The translations under genes were made by a program, and so were the position numbers. This document shows, in pieces, positions 217 to 17,611 of a stretch of 23,284 bases of DNA; position 1 is the stretch's first letter, and each line of letters opens with the position of its first letter. This DNA is from a virus. The notes under the pieces were generated by a model. The model did not search any database. It was not told the origin of the DNA and saw nothing but the letters and a program-made list of their open reading frames with translations. The stretch covers positions 1 through 23,284 of the IMG/VR virus record IMGVR_UViG_3300046167_000731; one strand, 5' to 3'.

Positions 217-1493
217 TACCCACCTCTCAATCTAAATGAACCTGTGTTGATGCGTTTGATTGGCCGAAGCTGCATGAGGGCGTAGCCGATGGCATCGCAG
301 AGGTGATCCATGCCGCTCTTCTTATCTGGTTTGCCATTATCATCGAAAGATAAACCCTCTAAACCTCTGATCAGCCCCTTACATCGGGGGTTAATTAGGA
401 GCCGGGGGACACCGTCTGCATTTCGCAAGACTGCCTGAGTACAATTAATTCTATCTCTTACTGGCGCAGTTCTCGACGGTGCAATTACAGAATACCCTGC
501 CCCACCTAGAATCGTAAAGTCTGTATTTCCCCCGGCGGATGTTTTTCTTTGCCTTCCGCTAGGATCTGGATACGCAATTAGTTCGCGCTCTTTAAATCTT
601 TTGTCGATCTCTGTAACGAGCATCGAGGTGTTGCCGCCGAATATCTCAATTTCATCAAAAGCTAGCAGTAACCCGTCCTCTGCTTCACAGAGAAAGATCG
701 CGCTCATTGGATTGATGTTAAAGTCGATTCCGGCGTAGACCGTACCTCCAAGATCCACAGCGTCTTTGCTGACGTTAATCTTTCGGTCAAAGCTAGAATA
801 CACGCGGCTGGATGGGTTGCTGAAGGCGGCTTCGAACTCTTGCCGGAACTGATGCTCGGACAGGGTTTCGCGGGCAGCGGCGACTTCATCATCATCCACG
901 TTTCCGCCTTGCAGAGTTGTGTAACTGTGGGCGCTCCATTGTGGTTCACTGGCCTCGGCATATGTGAATAGATCATAGACCCAGTTAAGACCCTTGGGAG
1001 TTCCACAAGCGAGCATATCTCCGCGTCTATCGGCAAGCGCCGGGCGCAAGACTTCAAACCAGATGTGAGCCGGTTGGTCAGCGATTTCATCGAGCAAAAC
1101 CATGTCGATTGCCATGCCTCGGAGTCCATCGCCGTTATCCGCGCCACCGAGCTTAATCATCGATCCCCAGTGTTTAATTATAATCTCTAGGGACGTTTCG
1201 TTGCTGTACTCCACCATTTCTTTTGGGATTGCGTTTTTCAGTTCGCGCCAGAAGATTTGTTTGGTTTGTTTCAGCGATGGGCCAACGATCAGTATGTTTG
1301 CCCGCTGACGGGTTTGCGCTGCCCGCACTGCTTCATGCATCATCAGGTAAGACTTGCCGAAACGCCTTCCCGCAATGACCACTCTGAACCTCGCCGGATC
1401 AGTATAGACTTGGGTTTGGGCGTGAGTGAGGCCCAGCGCTTCTTGAATGCCTTTTTGGTCGTTACTTAGTTCATCAAGGGTTTCAGTTGCCAT
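216..1493 (-). CDS. terL: Terminase large subunit (packaging ATPase/nuclease)
   Basis: This is the ATP-driven motor that docks on the portal, pumps DNA into the procapsid and cuts the concatemer. In the 425-aa form starting MATETLDEL, a Walker A motif AGRRFGKS is at residues 41-48, Walker B MVLLDE at 131-136, and a coupling-type motif CGTPKG at 163-168. The C-terminal RNase H-like nuclease has acidic residues in YAGIDFN (D257), YPDPSG (D310) and MDHLCDAIGYAL (D396, D400). Length and motif order are normal for TerL. I chose the ATG at 1493 because it overlaps terS by only 11 bases and has AGAGGAAG upstream; a start at 1562 would overlap terS by 80 bases. It lies on the strand opposite to the portal and all later structural genes. 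The family assignment is secure from the motifs; headful versus cos packaging cannot be decided here. Confidence 0.96.
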   Translation of the reverse strand: MATETLDELSNDQKGIQEALGLTHAQTQVYTDPARFRVVIAGRRFGKSYLMMHEAVRAAQTRQRANILIVGPSLKQTKQIFWRELKNAIPKEMVEYSNETSLEIIIKHWGSMIKLGGADNGDGLRGMAIDMVLLDEIADQPAHIWFEVLRPALADRRGDMLACGTPKGLNWVYDLFTYAEASEPQWSAHSYTTLQGGNVDDDEVAAARETLSEHQFRQEFEAAFSNPSSRVYSSFDRKINVSKDAVDLGGTVYAGIDFNINPMSAIFLCEAEDGLLLAFDEIEIFGGNTSMLVTEIDKRFKERELIAYPDPSGRQRKTSAGGNTDFTILGGAGYSVIAPSRTAPVRDRINCTQAVLRNADGVPRLLINPRCKGLIRGLEGLSFDDNGKPDKKSGMDHLCDAIGYALMQLRPIKRINTGSFRLRGG

Positions 1494-2091
1494 TATCGGT
1501 GGGGCTTCCTCTACGCTGAAGCACTGGCACAAACGGTTTGATTTCTTTGTTTGAGTCAGCATTCAGCCGGTGAATGTTGGTTTCTAGTTCTGTAATGGTT
1601 TTGGCGATGTTGGTTTGCTTGGTGACAAGATCGAAGACACTTTCTTTGTAGTTCACAAAGTCATTGGCACGTTCATCACCTGATCTTTTCAGATCAATTA
1701 CCATCGACAGGAAATCCCAATCCTCATGTAATTTCTCCAGACGAGACTTTTGCCTTTGTAGAACTGTTTTCTTAATATCGACATCTTTGGCGTACACATC
1801 TTCGCTTGTGATGCGTTTCTTTTTGTCAATTTTCTGAACTTCTTCTTCCAGAACTCTGGTTCTTGCGTCCACATTCGCTTGAGCGCCTGTGTCACGGCTC
1901 CAACCGTGCCTTTTTGCATACTGATCTATGGCTTGGAAGCTTCGACCCTGGGCAATTTCCATATCAGCTATGGCTCTAACGCTTACGCCTTGCTGGTATA
2001 GACCTCGGATCTGATCCCAATCAGGTTGTTGACGCTTTTTCTTCTCAACCCGTTGATTTTCAACAGGTAATTTCTCAACATTGCTTGCCAT
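1483..2091 (-). CDS. terS: Terminase small subunit, probable
   Basis: The gene directly precedes terL and overlaps it by 11 bases. The protein (about 202 aa) begins with a basic linker, then has a helix-turn-helix-like segment (WDQIRGLYQQGVSVRAIADM followed by QAIDQYAKRHGWSRD, about residues 25-70), and then a long charged, helical middle compatible with an oligomerising coiled coil. This is the usual TerS plan: DNA recognition, ring formation and a C-terminal tail that contacts TerL. The ATG at 2091 has only a weak ribosome site. A TTG at 2106, five codons upstream and preceded by AGTAAGAAA, is the alternative. Function follows from the position and the DNA-binding motif rather than a strong family signature. 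Confidence 0.85.
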   Translation of the reverse strand: MASNVEKLPVENQRVEKKKRQQPDWDQIRGLYQQGVSVRAIADMEIAQGRSFQAIDQYAKRHGWSRDTGAQANVDARTRVLEEEVQKIDKKKRITSEDVYAKDVDIKKTVLQRQKSRLEKLHEDWDFLSMVIDLKRSGDERANDFVNYKESVFDLVTKQTNIAKTITELETNIHRLNADSNKEIKPFVPVLQRRGSPTDNGN

Positions 2092-2116: not shown

Positions 2117-2172
2117 TTGACGCAGCCTAATTTATTGACAAAATTATGTCTACATACAAATTAAAGTTGACA
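2117..2172 (+). repeat. Three same-orientation TTGAC repeats
   Basis: TTGACG at 2117-2122, TTGACA at 2135-2140 and TTGACA at 2167-2172 lie in the same orientation in the divergent gap. They may be two or three -35 elements or binding sites for a regulator. Nothing further in the sequence decides between these. Confidence 0.4.
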
Positions 2173-2173
2173 A
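2143..2173 (-). promoter_or_regulatory. Candidate minus-strand promoter for terS-terL
   Basis: Read on the minus strand, TTGTCA (complement of 2168-2173) is followed 19 bases later by CATAAT (complement of 2143-2148), each one mismatch from the sigma70 consensus. The 19-base spacer is longer than optimal, so this is a weak prediction. It fits the need for a leftward start between the portal and terS. Confidence 0.35.
2149..2163 (+). repeat. CTACATACA motif, copy 1
   Basis: TCTACATACAAATTA lies in the terS-portal divergent gap. Close matches occur in the gaps before 16768 (16730-16744) and before 17102 (17023-17038), with a looser one after the capsid gene (6579-6592). All are intergenic, which suggests a regulatory site rather than chance. 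The function is unknown. Confidence 0.5.
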
Positions 2174-2194
2174 AGTAGGAATGCAAAATATATG
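2167..2194 (+). promoter_or_regulatory. Candidate plus-strand sigma70-like promoter
   Basis: A perfect TTGACA (2167-2172) is followed after 16 bases by TATATG (2189-2194). Transcription would start near 2201 and reach the terminator at 2264-2299 after roughly 100 bases. The -35 hexamer overlaps the -35 of the candidate leftward promoter, so the two would compete or be co-regulated. Confidence 0.45.
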
Positions 2195-2263
2195 CACAAA
2201 TTGAAGGTAGAGGTTATGTGTTTCTCCTCCCAGCATCGCTTCCCTTCGACTTCAAGTCCAACT

Positions 2264-2299
2264 GCCTCGCCAGTCCTCTTTCGGCGGGGCTTTTTTTTT
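2264..2299 (+). terminator. Strong intrinsic terminator upstream of the portal gene
   Basis: An 8-bp stem (GCCTCGCC at 2264-2271 pairing with GGCGGGGC at 2283-2290, with one G-T pair) has an 11-base loop and is followed by nine T residues (2291-2299). This is a textbook rho-independent terminator. It sits 11 bases before the portal start, so rightward transcripts from 2107-2263 should end here unless antiterminated. Portal expression then needs readthrough, antitermination or a start I cannot see. Confidence 0.88.
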
Positions 2300-2310
2300 G
2301 GAAGAATGCT

Positions 2311-3693
2311 TTGGCTCAAATAGACAACCATTCAGCGTATCAGTGGCACCAAGAAGATTGGAGATTGCTGCGAGACTTTTATCGCGGCGAGCGCTGGGTC
2401 AAAACAGCGGGTCAAACCTATCTTCCTCAACTGGAAGATCAGAACACTGTTGAGTACCGCAACTACAAGGCCCGCACCGTTTATCTAAATGCAGTCAAGC
2501 GCACTGTCGCTGGGTTGGTCGGCGTAGCGTTTCGGCGCCCGGTTGAATACAGCATCGGCGAACAGAACGCTGATCTCATGGACGATCTGCAAAACTTCAC
2601 AAATGATGGCCTATCGTTTGAGGTGTTCTGTCGTGAGGTCTTTCGCGAGACAATCCTGATGGGCCGTTGTGGCGTTTTAGTTGATGCCCCTGCATCTGGC
2701 GGGCTGCCGTATGCAACGACTTATCACGCTGAAAACATCACCAACTGGTTTGTTGAAAGCCGTGATGGCCGCAAGCGAGTGACTGAGATCCAAGTATACG
2801 AGGCCGATAGCAACAATTACATCCGCCAGACATTTGGTACTGTTACCAGCGACCAGTACCGCGTTCTAAAGATCCAAGATGGCATCTATAATCAGTCTGT
2901 CATCATGCCCGATGATCAGGGCGAATATGGCGAGTCTTCTGACTTTTTTGTTCCCCAGGTTGGCAATCGACCTCTGGCGTCGATCCCGTTTGTTTTCTTT
3001 GGCCCCAACACATTGCTGTCCGACTGTGACACTAGCCCTGTGTTGGACATCGCCCGCCTCAACGAGAAACATTACTTAGCATCAGCGGATCTTTCTCATG
3101 CTCTACACTATTCCGCATTACCTACGCCGTTTGTTACCGGATATTCCGGTGAAGCCGGATCGCTTAGTCTTGGGCCTAATCGAGTCTGGCTACTGGATAC
3201 AGATCAAAAAGCCGGAATGTTGGAATTTAAAGGTGAAGGACTTTCCTTCTTGGAAAGCTCGGTTCAACGCCTCAAAGAAGAAATGAGCTTGATGGGTGCG
3301 GGGCTGATGGCTGAAGCGCGTCGAGGCTCAGAGAACTCAGAGGTCATGCAGTCACGGGCACGCGGAGAACAGGCTACTCTTCTTTCGGTGCTGGATACTG
3401 TTGAACGTGGCTTGGAGCGGGTGCTTGAGATGTACTTGATGTTCCGCCAGCGAGATCCATCAGAGGTTAACGTGCGACTCAACCGTGATCTATCCGAAAC
3501 CCGTTTGAGTTACCGCGATGTCCTGATGACGCTGCGCCTCTACATGAACGGTATTCTTCCGCTGGATGCGATTTTGGACAAGTTCTATGAGGGCGACATT
3601 CTCCCGTCCAACATGACAGCCGCTGAAGCCAAGGCGCTATTAGAGGAACCGGGACAGACGCCGGAGCCAGATCCTGATCGGAAGGTGTTCTGA
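2311..3693 (+). CDS. Portal protein, DUF4055 type
   Basis: The protein forms the dodecameric ring at the unique capsid vertex through which DNA passes and to which terminase and neck attach. The N-terminus (HQEDWRLLRDFYRGERWV, then a TYLPQLE segment, then VYLNAVKRTVAGLVGVAFRRP) matches what I know of DUF4055 portal proteins, and about 460 aa is normal for them. The frame stays open upstream to 2218, but that stretch is the terminator hairpin and T tract, so it is unlikely to be coding. I chose the TTG at 2311, which has GGAAG six bases upstream. An out-of-frame ATG at 2306 closes within a few codons. The stop overlaps the next ATG (TGATG). Confidence 0.93.
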   Translation: MAQIDNHSAYQWHQEDWRLLRDFYRGERWVKTAGQTYLPQLEDQNTVEYRNYKARTVYLNAVKRTVAGLVGVAFRRPVEYSIGEQNADLMDDLQNFTNDGLSFEVFCREVFRETILMGRCGVLVDAPASGGLPYATTYHAENITNWFVESRDGRKRVTEIQVYEADSNNYIRQTFGTVTSDQYRVLKIQDGIYNQSVIMPDDQGEYGESSDFFVPQVGNRPLASIPFVFFGPNTLLSDCDTSPVLDIARLNEKHYLASADLSHALHYSALPTPFVTGYSGEAGSLSLGPNRVWLLDTDQKAGMLEFKGEGLSFLESSVQRLKEEMSLMGAGLMAEARRGSENSEVMQSRARGEQATLLSVLDTVERGLERVLEMYLMFRQRDPSEVNVRLNRDLSETRLSYRDVLMTLRLYMNGILPLDAILDKFYEGDILPSNMTAAEAKALLEEPGQTPEPDPDRKVF

Positions 3694-5440: not shown

Positions 5441-6577
5441 ATGGCTAATACCATTCTTACACCATCCATCATCGCCAACGAAGCCCTGTTGATTTTGGAG
5501 AATAATCTGACGGCAGCTAACACTGTCTTCCGCGATTATGAGTCAGAATTCACTGGTTCTCGCGTTGGTGATACAATCACAATCCGCAAGCCAGCCGGCG
5601 TTTACTGTGAACGAGTTCACTAGCTCAATCACAAAACAAGACATCACTGAAACCAGTGTGTCTATGCAGCTTGAAAAGCACTTCGACGTTTCAACCGAAG
5701 GTCACCTCTCGCCAGATGACTTTGGATCTCGACGGCTTCTCAGAGCGCGTAATCGAGCCAGCAATGGTTGCTTTGGCTGAACAAATCGATGGTTATATCT
5801 ATGACCAGTACGATGAAGTTCACAACACTGTCGGAACAGCCGGAACCCCACCAGCTTCATTGGCGAACTTGGCCGCAATCGACCAAATTCTCAACGAGCA
5901 AAAGGTTCCAATGTCTGGCCGCGTTGGCTTTATGAACCCAGCCGCAAAAGCAGCTATGATGGGTATCGAAGCAGTCGTAACCGCTGAAAAGCGTGGCGAT
6001 GGCGGAACAGCGTTGCGCGAAGCCTCAATGGGTCGCGTGATGGGTCTTGATTTCTACGGCGTACAAGGCGTGAAATCACATACCGCTGGTTCACAGGGTG
6101 GACAGTCTGGCTTATTGGTAAACGGCGCAGTGTCAGCAGGAGCAACTACTATGAACGCAGATGCGGCTCACGCATCGGCTGCAACACTGAAAAAAGGTGA
6201 TGTCTTCACCGTTGCCGGTGTTTTCAGGTTCATTTGTTGTGACAGCCGACAAGACAGCTTCTGGTTCAGCGTTCTCAGGTATCGCGTTCTCACCAGCGGC
6301 ACCAACAGGCGGCTTTGCAGATAACGCTGCAATCACTGTTAAAGACGATCACGTTGCTAACATCGCGGGTCATCCTCGCGGCTTGGCACTGGCAGTTGTT
6401 CCTCTGGCGCTTCCAATGGATGCATCAGGTCGTGCGGCTATCGTTTCAAACCGTGGCCTCTCAATTCGTGTTGTACAAGATTATGACATCTCATCAAAAT
6501 CTGATGTGATCTCATTCGACGTACTGTGCGGAGCGAAAGTGATCCAGCCAGAATTGCTCACTCGCGTTTTGGGCTAA
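5441..6577 (+). CDS. Major capsid protein, P22 coat-like, interrupted by three +1 shifts
   Basis: The start (MANTILTPSIIANEALLILE) with AAGGAG upstream is typical of P22-like coat proteins with the HK97 fold. The gene then needs three frame corrections. After TITIRKPA near 5595-5600 the frame moves +1 to AFTVNEFTSSITKQDITET. After KHFDVSTE near 5699-5701 it moves +1 to VTSRQMTLDLDGFSERVIEP. After GDVFTVAG near 6215-6229 it moves +1 to the SFVVTADKTASG frame, which runs to the stop. Each is restored by removing one base (GG at 5597-5598, GG at 5700-5701, and the T run or GG in 6218-6228). The repaired product is about 377 aa, normal for the family. As written no intact coat protein could be made. 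Sequence error is the simplest explanation. Confidence 0.92.
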
Positions 6578-6631: not shown

Positions 6632-6653
6632 AGGGGGCTGTCCGGCCCCCTTT
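6632..6653 (+). terminator. Intrinsic terminator after the major capsid gene
   Basis: AGGGGGC (6632-6638) pairs with GCCCCCT (6645-6651) across a 6-base loop and is followed by a short T run. The T tract is only three bases, so termination may be partial. That would set a high level for the capsid gene and a lower level for the fibre genes downstream. Confidence 0.75.
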
Positions 6654-6672
6654 CAATACAACAGGAGAAACT

Positions 6673-6966
6673 ATGAAACTCTTTAAAAATAAAGACTTTG
6701 TGGTCGTTGATCCCGGCACAGACGCTTACGATCACTTCATCAAGCAGGGCTACAAAGAAGATAAAAAAGTTGCTGCGAAAGAGAGAGCGGAAGATCCTTA
6801 TCGCCAAGAGGGCGACCTTATCGATATTGATGCGCTGAACAAAGTGCAGATCGAAGACATGGCCCGCCAAGAGTTTGGCGTTGAGATGGATCGCCGTTGG
6901 TCACTACCCCGCATGAAAGAACAGTTAGCTGGATTGTTTGCGAAGGCTGAAAAAGAGGAAGAGTGA
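6673..6966 (+). CDS. Hypothetical protein with a SAP/LEM-like C-terminal helix pair
   Basis: The start MKLFKNKDFVVV has AGGAG upstream. The frame opens earlier (6526) but that part lies in the capsid gene and the terminator. The 97-aa protein has a beta-like N-terminus, an acidic middle, and a C-terminal segment LNKVQIEDMARQEFGVEMD followed by RRWSLPRMKEQLAGLF. This resembles the short helix-extended-helix (SAP/LEM/Rho-N-like) motifs found at the ends of small phage head proteins. It is the first gene after the capsid terminator and could be a head completion or decoration protein; this is inference. Confidence 0.75.
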   Translation: MKLFKNKDFVVVDPGTDAYDHFIKQGYKEDKKVAAKERAEDPYRQEGDLIDIDALNKVQIEDMARQEFGVEMDRRWSLPRMKEQLAGLFAKAEKEEE

Positions 6967-16767: not shown

Positions 16768-17010
16768 ATGAATACCGAAACAAGCGAAATGATTGTTGAA
16801 AATGAAGAACGAACATTCAACATCGATGGCACTAAAATAAAGGAATCTGAATTATCTCAAGAACAAATGTATCTTATGAGGCTTGTTGATAGGTTAAAGT
16901 CTGAAACCTTCAATATCTCAATGTCTTTAGATGAAAAACAGTTTGCTTTAGAAACCGCAATGAAGCGACTTGGTGCCACTGTTAAAAAAGAAGAAGCTGA
17001 GTCCAGTTAA
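16768..17010 (+). CDS. Small helical protein, DUF6447-like
   Basis: The 80-aa protein has a good ribosome site (GAAGGGAAG). The pattern FNIDGTKIKESELSQEQMYL followed by a long helix up to LETAMKRLGATVKKEE is like that of small phage proteins grouped in DUF6447 (an ID-G-x-x-Y-like hairpin, then an LS-x-E-x-x helix). It stands alone between two copies of the CTACATACA motif and upstream of a strong terminator, so it may be its own transcription unit. The function is unknown. Confidence 0.78.
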   Translation: MNTETSEMIVENEERTFNIDGTKIKESELSQEQMYLMRLVDRLKSETFNISMSLDEKQFALETAMKRLGATVKKEEAESS

Positions 17011-17022
17011 AACTTGCCTTTT

Positions 17023-17038
17023 CCTACATACAAATTTA
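17023..17038 (+). repeat. CTACATACA motif, copy 3
   Basis: CCTACATACAAATTTA lies just after the 16768 gene and 25 bases before a terminator. It matches copy 1 over CTACATACAAATT (13 bases). Confidence 0.5.
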
Positions 17039-17062
17039 ACACAAATATAAGATAAGGATATT

Positions 17063-17086
17063 AAAGGGCCATTTTGGCCCTTTTTT
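17063..17086 (+). terminator. Strong intrinsic terminator before the neck genes
   Basis: AAAGGGCC (17063-17070) pairs with GGCCCTTT (17076-17083) across a 5-base loop and is followed by T residues. The next gene starts only 16 bases beyond the T tract, leaving no room for a normal promoter in between. The neck and tail operon must therefore be read through this terminator or use an unusual start. Confidence 0.9.
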
Positions 17087-17101
17087 GTTTTGGAGATGCC
17101 A

Positions 17102-17611
17102 ATGACATTCGCACTTGTCGCTGAAACAGGATCGGGAGTGAGCGGGGCAAACGCCTATGCCACAGTATCAAATGCTGATACATATTTCGATGGACAGATC
17201 TACAAAAACTCTTGGATCAAATCATCTTCAGCGCAAAAAGCCCAAGCCTTGGCGATGGCCACTTCGACCCTCGATACTCTGGTTGCTTGGAACGGCACAA
17301 AAAAGGTTTCAACCAATCCCCTAGAGTGGCCACGCAAAGGTGTAACTGAAAAGAACGGATACGCGATTGCCGATGATGTAATCCCCGATGTCATCAAAGA
17401 AGCAACATATCTCACCGCTCTCGGTCTGCTTGAAAGCAATCGCAGGGAAGAACCTGGTGACGCCGGCATTGATGAACTGACCCTGGAAGGCATCGATATT
17501 AAATTTAATAAAACAGACAGATCATCAATTTTGCCCCACTTTGTAATGCTTGTCGTTGAAGATTACGGGCGTATCAAAGGCGGGCGTTTTGCAAGCGTGT
17601 CGAGGTCATAA
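17102..17611 (+). CDS. Head-tail connector, DnaT-like family
   Basis: The ATG at 17102 has TGGAG six bases upstream; a TTG at 17090 lies close to the terminator tail and is less likely. The 169-aa protein has ETGSGVSGANAYATVSNADT YFDG near the N-terminus, then a helix with AQALAMATSTLDTL and the marker LEWPRKGV, followed by IPDVIKEATYLTALGLL. This is the phage family usually labelled putative DnaT-like single-strand DNA-binding protein, whose members sit at the first neck-gene position and are thought to be gp6/gp15-like adaptors. I favour the connector role from context. Confidence 0.88.
   Translation: MTFALVAETGSGVSGANAYATVSNADTYFDGQIYKNSWIKSSSAQKAQALAMATSTLDTLVAWNGTKKVSTNPLEWPRKGVTEKNGYAIADDVIPDVIKEATYLTALGLLESNRREEPGDAGIDELTLEGIDIKFNKTDRSSILPHFVMLVVEDYGRIKGGRFASVSRS

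Follow-up and report, generated by a model that had tools for sequence, protein, structure and literature searches.

A promoter-terminator unit predicted to encode an ar14/CcsR-like small RNA at the terminase-portal junction of a probable alphaproteobacterial phage

Results

The window, that is, the whole stretch of DNA analysed here, is a 23,284-base virus record from IMG/VR. Its left part carries the TerL gene (216-1493, leftward) and the terminase small subunit (TerS) gene (1483-2091, minus strand, phrog_1206), the latter divergent from the portal gene (2311-3693, plus strand), which starts with TTG and matches the portal family phrog_145 with an E-value of 1.5e-99. The rightward genes encode portal, scaffold, major capsid, fibre, neck and tail proteins. 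The major capsid gene (5441-6577) is split into three frames in the window and is intact in the sister contigs L002 and L003, so that the break probably reflects sequencing or assembly errors. Leftward, the locus continues in another sister contig, G001 (IMGVR 3300017743_000127), with a tyrosine integrase, a winged-helix gene and a cell-wall hydrolase, for which reason the phage is probably temperate. Portal relatives include phages of Roseobacter, Caulobacter and Erythrobacter, which is consistent with a host that is probably an alphaproteobacterium.

Analysis of the region between TerS and portal revealed a promoter of the alphaproteobacterial sigma70 type on the plus strand (GTTGACA-16-TATATG, 2166-2194), with a predicted transcription start near 2200-2201. 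The perfect TTGACA (2167-2172) and the TATATG box (2189-2194) named in the first-pass annotation are both present, separated by a 16-nt spacer, and form the best site of this type in the window: GTTGAC-16-ATATAT agrees at 10 of 12 positions with the consensus CTTGAC-N16-18-CTATAT and is the sole site reaching at least 10/12 on either strand, the consensus being alphaproteobacterial and the host only probably a member of that group. A comparable promoter, CTTAGAC-N17-CTATAT, precedes the NfeR1 RNA and has been described as a recognisable alphaproteobacterial RpoD signature (PMC10746234). With an Escherichia coli sigma70 weight matrix the promoter ranked only 78th in the window, because the last position of its -10 box lacks T, and it was outscored by neighbouring sites at 2117 and 2135 in the same intergenic region.

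Downstream of this promoter lies an intrinsic terminator (2264-2299, plus strand), in which GCCTCGCC, an 11-nt loop and GGCGGGGC form an 8-bp stem (2264-2290) followed by nine T residues (2291-2299). The T run is the longest in the window, and the hairpin (-14.3 kcal/mol) is the most stable among those preceding at least six T. Its terminator score of 34.4 has only one comparable counterpart on the plus strand of the window, at 17063-17086. The strength attributed to this terminator on first inspection was therefore confirmed. In RNA folding from three assumed starts the terminator stem paired with a probability of at least 0.97 and no antiterminator fold was obtained, and attenuation through a leader peptide or an alternative fold was consequently rejected.

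The Shine-Dalgarno sequence of the portal gene (GGAAGA, 2300-2305) begins directly after the T run and ends five bases before the TTG codon at 2311. This start fits the alignment of relatives and the upstream stop codon in L002. An alternative GTG start at 2218 was discarded: the portal frame is open up to that point in the window, but L002 carries TGA there through a CG to GA change at 2237-2238. Since no promoter fits between the end of the T run at 2299 and the ribosome-binding site starting at 2300, portal mRNA must pass the terminator, and the earlier statement that portal expression needs escape from it follows from the anatomy of the sequence. A 35-aa ORF spanning the terminator (2216-2323, plus strand) is probably not a gene, as it has no PHROG family match. 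Together with the stop codon in L002, this agrees with the earlier view that no convincing gene lies between promoter and terminator.

The predicted transcript (2201-2299, plus strand; about 97 nt) folds into a 5′ hairpin (hairpin 1, 2203-2247), a short linker and the terminator. Hairpin 1 displays a 13-nt loop, GUUUCUCCUCCCA (2220-2232), which contains the anti-Shine-Dalgarno motif CUCCUCCC. Comparison with Rfam revealed a full-length match of positions 2203-2296 to ar14 (RF02344), in which the alignment runs end to end and CUCCUCCCA lies in register within the loop. The match scores 25.9 bits, with E-values of 0.0016, 0.003 and 0.3 when the searched sequence is 2190-2310, 2090-2320 or the whole window, respectively. 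The corresponding match in L002 reaches 29.3 bits (E 0.00028 over the region, 0.033 over 14.5 kb). Both scores lie far below the ar14 gathering cut-off of 58.8 bits, and a search of Rfam at gathering thresholds reported nothing, nor did a tRNA search. When the 14.5 kb of the sister contig was compared with all 4,227 Rfam families, E-values of 1 or less were obtained for ar14 and anti-hemB only, both at the predicted RNA. Anti-hemB, the second match at this region, likewise carries UCUCCUCCC in a loop. In the whole-window scan, an L20-leader match at 16982-17096 scored as high as the ar14 match and was taken as accidental.

In canonical ar14-type hairpins the loop is likewise 13 nt long, as in ACUCCUCCUCCCA. 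The window has a single copy of CTCCTCCC, and shuffling of 2201-2263 put this sequence in a hairpin loop in 48 of 100,000 cases. With a 41-nt hairpin model for which 32 other hairpins were used and the window was left out, hairpin 1 ranked first in the window with a weak 13.1 bits (E 0.26), and its L002 form ranked first over 151 kb including twelve other loci, again weakly (18.6 bits, E 0.07). The predicted RNA thus has a hairpin of the kind found in the "cuckoo" family, exposing CUCCUCCC in its loop at 2220-2232, and ends, like those RNAs, in a Rho-independent terminator hairpin (2264-2299). Where ar14 RNAs have three hairpins, each with an unpaired CCUCCUCCC, a single loop with CUCCUCCC was found here. 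That loop preserves eight of the nine motif bases, the first C being replaced by U, and the terminator loop, AGUCCUCUUUC, lacks the motif. It has to be noted that pyrimidine loops in 5′ hairpins beside a terminator can arise by chance.

Within the phage itself, the best target candidate is AGGAGAAAC (6652-6675), located before the ATG at 6673 of the gene that follows the major capsid gene. Nine loop bases of the RNA (GUUUCUCCU) are complementary to it (-13.5 kcal/mol), which makes it a possible target, and the pairing may be due to chance.

The promoter-terminator element is identical in the sister contig L001, and two of its bases are changed in L002. These changes, at 2237-2238, both make one pair or strengthen one in hairpin 1, and the whole RNA becomes more stable (from -30.3 to -34.2 kcal/mol). 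The predicted RNA is represented by these two sequence variants only, too few for an analysis of covariation. Over the tract 1401-2600 the window and L002 show nine differences, whereas the flanks differ by about 3-6%; either recombination or constraint is possible as the cause. Scans of proteins and alignments, together with a DNA scan of viral contigs, found no intermediate relatives, portal identity dropping from about 99% straight to about 36%, and the intergenic DNA had no match among named phages.

Of the 53 loci found with the same divergent TerL-TerS/portal layout, many are pieces that overlap within one contig or another, and few lineages are represented. The intergenic regions read in these relatives contain TTGAC-type boxes and measure 135-141 nt, as opposed to 219 nt here. 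None of the other distinct upstream regions examined contains the strong terminator. Because it is confined to the near-identical clade of the window, the predicted unit is a lineage-specific addition rather than a conserved RNA for packaging or for a late switch. The search for a conserved RNA at the junction in relatives, proposed with the first-pass annotation, showed conservation in the near-identical contigs only, and the next relatives with the same layout lack the unit. The region of the relatives (for example, 3360-3500 of L022) has a feature of its own, the conserved palindrome AGTCAA-N7-TTGACT, which possibly overlaps the -35 boxes of divergent promoters or serves as an operator. A contig end of one relative (L249 1-180, G007) carries about 21 tandem copies of the 8-base unit AATATACG.

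Upstream of the promoter, at 2150-2158 on the plus strand, lies CTACATACA, which is more over-represented than any other 9-mer when the window and the left sister sequence are taken together. It occurs there in six copies, where about 0.1 would be expected, and each copy is on the strand that carries the rightward genes (positions 2150, 16731 and 17024 of the window and 1100, 4295 and 4569 of contig L235). After three copies had been seen in the window, previously unseen sequence yielded three more, against an expectation of 0.014. The sites are mostly intergenic and just before genes. CTACATACA is absent from three relative contigs, and a literature search found nothing relevant. Its spacing to a -35 box is not constant, which led us to reject it as a plain -10 box; a phage-specific promoter element, a site for a repressor or stoperator, and an antitermination signal are possible functions. 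Stoperators are repressor sites that are asymmetric and aligned with the direction of transcription (PMC9283540). The copy at 17024 is followed by the second strong terminator of the window (17024-17086 for the combination, plus strand), which directly adjoins the Shine-Dalgarno sequence belonging to a structural (neck) gene with its start at 17102. As the two terminators directly precede the ribosome-binding sites of the portal gene and of this gene, both structural blocks may be under elongation control, whether by antitermination, a stoperator-like regulator or simple leakage.

At least 120 stretches with two CCTCCTCCC motifs were obtained from viral contigs, and thirteen loci were examined with Rfam. 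Among the matches listed, nine of these thirteen carried ar14 above the cut-off (71-82 bits; contigs L282, L361, L371, L379, L368, L338, L278, L294 and L374, whose viral status is that assigned by IMG/VR). Again among the matches listed, the RNA adjoins a DNA helicase gene (phrog_16), an exonuclease gene (phrog_10477) or both in eight of the nine contigs, and in the ninth, L374, a different helicase gene lies close by. The predicted RNA of the window differs in both module and form from these viral ar14 RNAs, most of which lie in this recurrent helicase/exonuclease module. The L282 RNA had no BLAST match among named phages. No report of a phage-borne ar14 was found in the literature covered, from which the original paper on the cuckoo family was missing, so that novelty is not certain.

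Discussion

Altogether, the data lead us to propose, with moderate confidence, that 2166-2299 is an independent unit for a phage sRNA of about 97 nt with the ar14/CcsR ("cuckoo") design, which would act in trans and would also limit late-gene expression. According to this model, host RNA polymerase would start at about position 2201 from a host sigma70 promoter and would usually stop at about 2297, releasing the short RNA. Hairpin 1 would then present CUCCUCCC in its 13-nt loop for pairing with GGAGG-type ribosome-binding sites, and such pairing with the Shine-Dalgarno regions of target mRNAs, from the host and possibly from the phage, would block translation. A fraction of the polymerases would read through, by leakage or with the help of a phage antiterminator, and would produce the portal operon mRNA with the sRNA as its leader. 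With the portal Shine-Dalgarno sequence directly behind the terminator, portal mRNA must be a read-through product, and attenuation of the late operon is the presumed second role of the unit. The RNA of about 100 bases with its own promoter, as predicted in the first-pass annotation, is thus well supported by the sequence. Of the two products then considered, a short RNA or an attenuated leader, the short RNA is favoured, and attenuation takes second place.

RNAs of the ar14 and CcsR types are chromosomal regulators of stress and nutrient responses in alphaproteobacteria. The predicted RNA resembles ar14, which includes NfeR1 of Sinorhizobium meliloti and belongs to the cuckoo family, in its alphaproteobacterial-type promoter, its similar length, its 5′ hairpin, whose 13-nt loop ends in CUCCUCCCA, and its intrinsic terminator hairpin. 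In ar14, however, each of three hairpins exposes CCUCCUCCC (PMC10746234), and in SmelA075 and SmelA099 the same loop motifs are combined with variable stems (PMC3927594). The phage RNA differs in having one such loop, with U in place of the first C, a terminator loop without the motif, and a score of 25.9-29.3 against the cut-off of 58.8; it also lies in a phage late region and runs on into portal mRNA. Given the single loop and the missing first C, we describe it as ar14-like and do not file it as a member of ar14. With the CcsR RNAs of Rhodobacter sphaeroides it shares the logic of an anti-Shine-Dalgarno loop plus terminator. Those RNAs consist of four tandem units processed from a transcript that includes a DUF1127 gene (PMC10253847), whereas a single unit with its own promoter was observed here, its neighbours are terS and portal, and no DUF1127 gene was found beside it or elsewhere in the contigs examined. 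Apparent CcsR-type arrays in two Rhodobacteraceae genomes scored 42-54 bits with the ar14 model, also below the cut-off, indicating that a score of this kind does not by itself exclude kinship.

The same arrangement could be a late-gene attenuator only, with a promoter-proximal terminator that is overcome by a phage factor or leaks at a fixed rate, the RNA being a by-product and CUCCUCCC a chance occurrence. We consider this a serious possibility, though not the probable one. Late structural genes lie behind promoter-proximal intrinsic terminators in the lambda Q (P_R′-t_R′) and Xp10 P7 systems as well; Q provides a phage precedent at lambdoid late promoters (PMC6606751), and P7 bypasses terminators before the late genes of Xp10 (PMC6624301). 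The position of the terminator between late promoter and late genes corresponds to Q-type control, and both structural blocks of the phage stand behind terminators that abut the Shine-Dalgarno sequences of portal and of the neck gene at 17102. Attenuation by itself leaves the ar14-like fold unexplained, however, and the other divergent relatives have no terminator at this junction. In addition, neither an antiterminator gene nor the Q families PF06530 and PF03589 were found in the partial contigs, and no direct-repeat Q site was recognised between the -35 and -10 boxes, although Q sites of unknown phages are not predictable. The earlier suggestion of a control point for late gene expression is therefore borne out as regards the placement of the terminator between promoter and portal, and the regulatory role itself is presumed.

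The unit might also be a relic or moron scar, left as a promoter-terminator cassette after the loss of its gene and having no present function. This appears unlikely: the longer intergenic region (219 versus 135-141 nt) and the restriction of the terminator to one clade would fit such an origin, but a sister contig has kept the unit nearly unchanged between flanks that differ by about 3-6%, a pattern that recombination could also explain, and hairpin 1 is preserved by both base changes. A packaging-related RNA or packaging site, also raised initially, could account for the location beside terS and for the unusual conservation of 1401-2600 between the window and L002 (nine differences). It found no support, since no Rfam packaging RNA matches the unit and relatives with the same terminase and portal layout lack it, and we consider it highly improbable.

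The sRNA unit that we favour recalls IsrK of the Gifsy-1 prophage, where one promoter gives rise to a short terminated sRNA and to a longer read-through mRNA reaching an antiterminator locus (PMC4825925). Read-through in our phage would lead to head genes instead, and no sequence relation to IsrK is claimed. As a speculative extension, which we rate as rather unlikely, the terminated RNA might be a captured ar14-like sRNA that lowers the mRNAs of the host or of competing phages, whereas read-through would launch the head-gene operon, both outputs being coupled by the efficiency of termination.

With clear ar14 RNAs in another nine viral contigs, among the matches listed, the idea of phage-borne anti-Shine-Dalgarno RNAs becomes testable. 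If phages do carry RNAs of the ar14/CcsR type, one of them at the entry to the head genes, these RNAs would offer a route to reprogram host translation.
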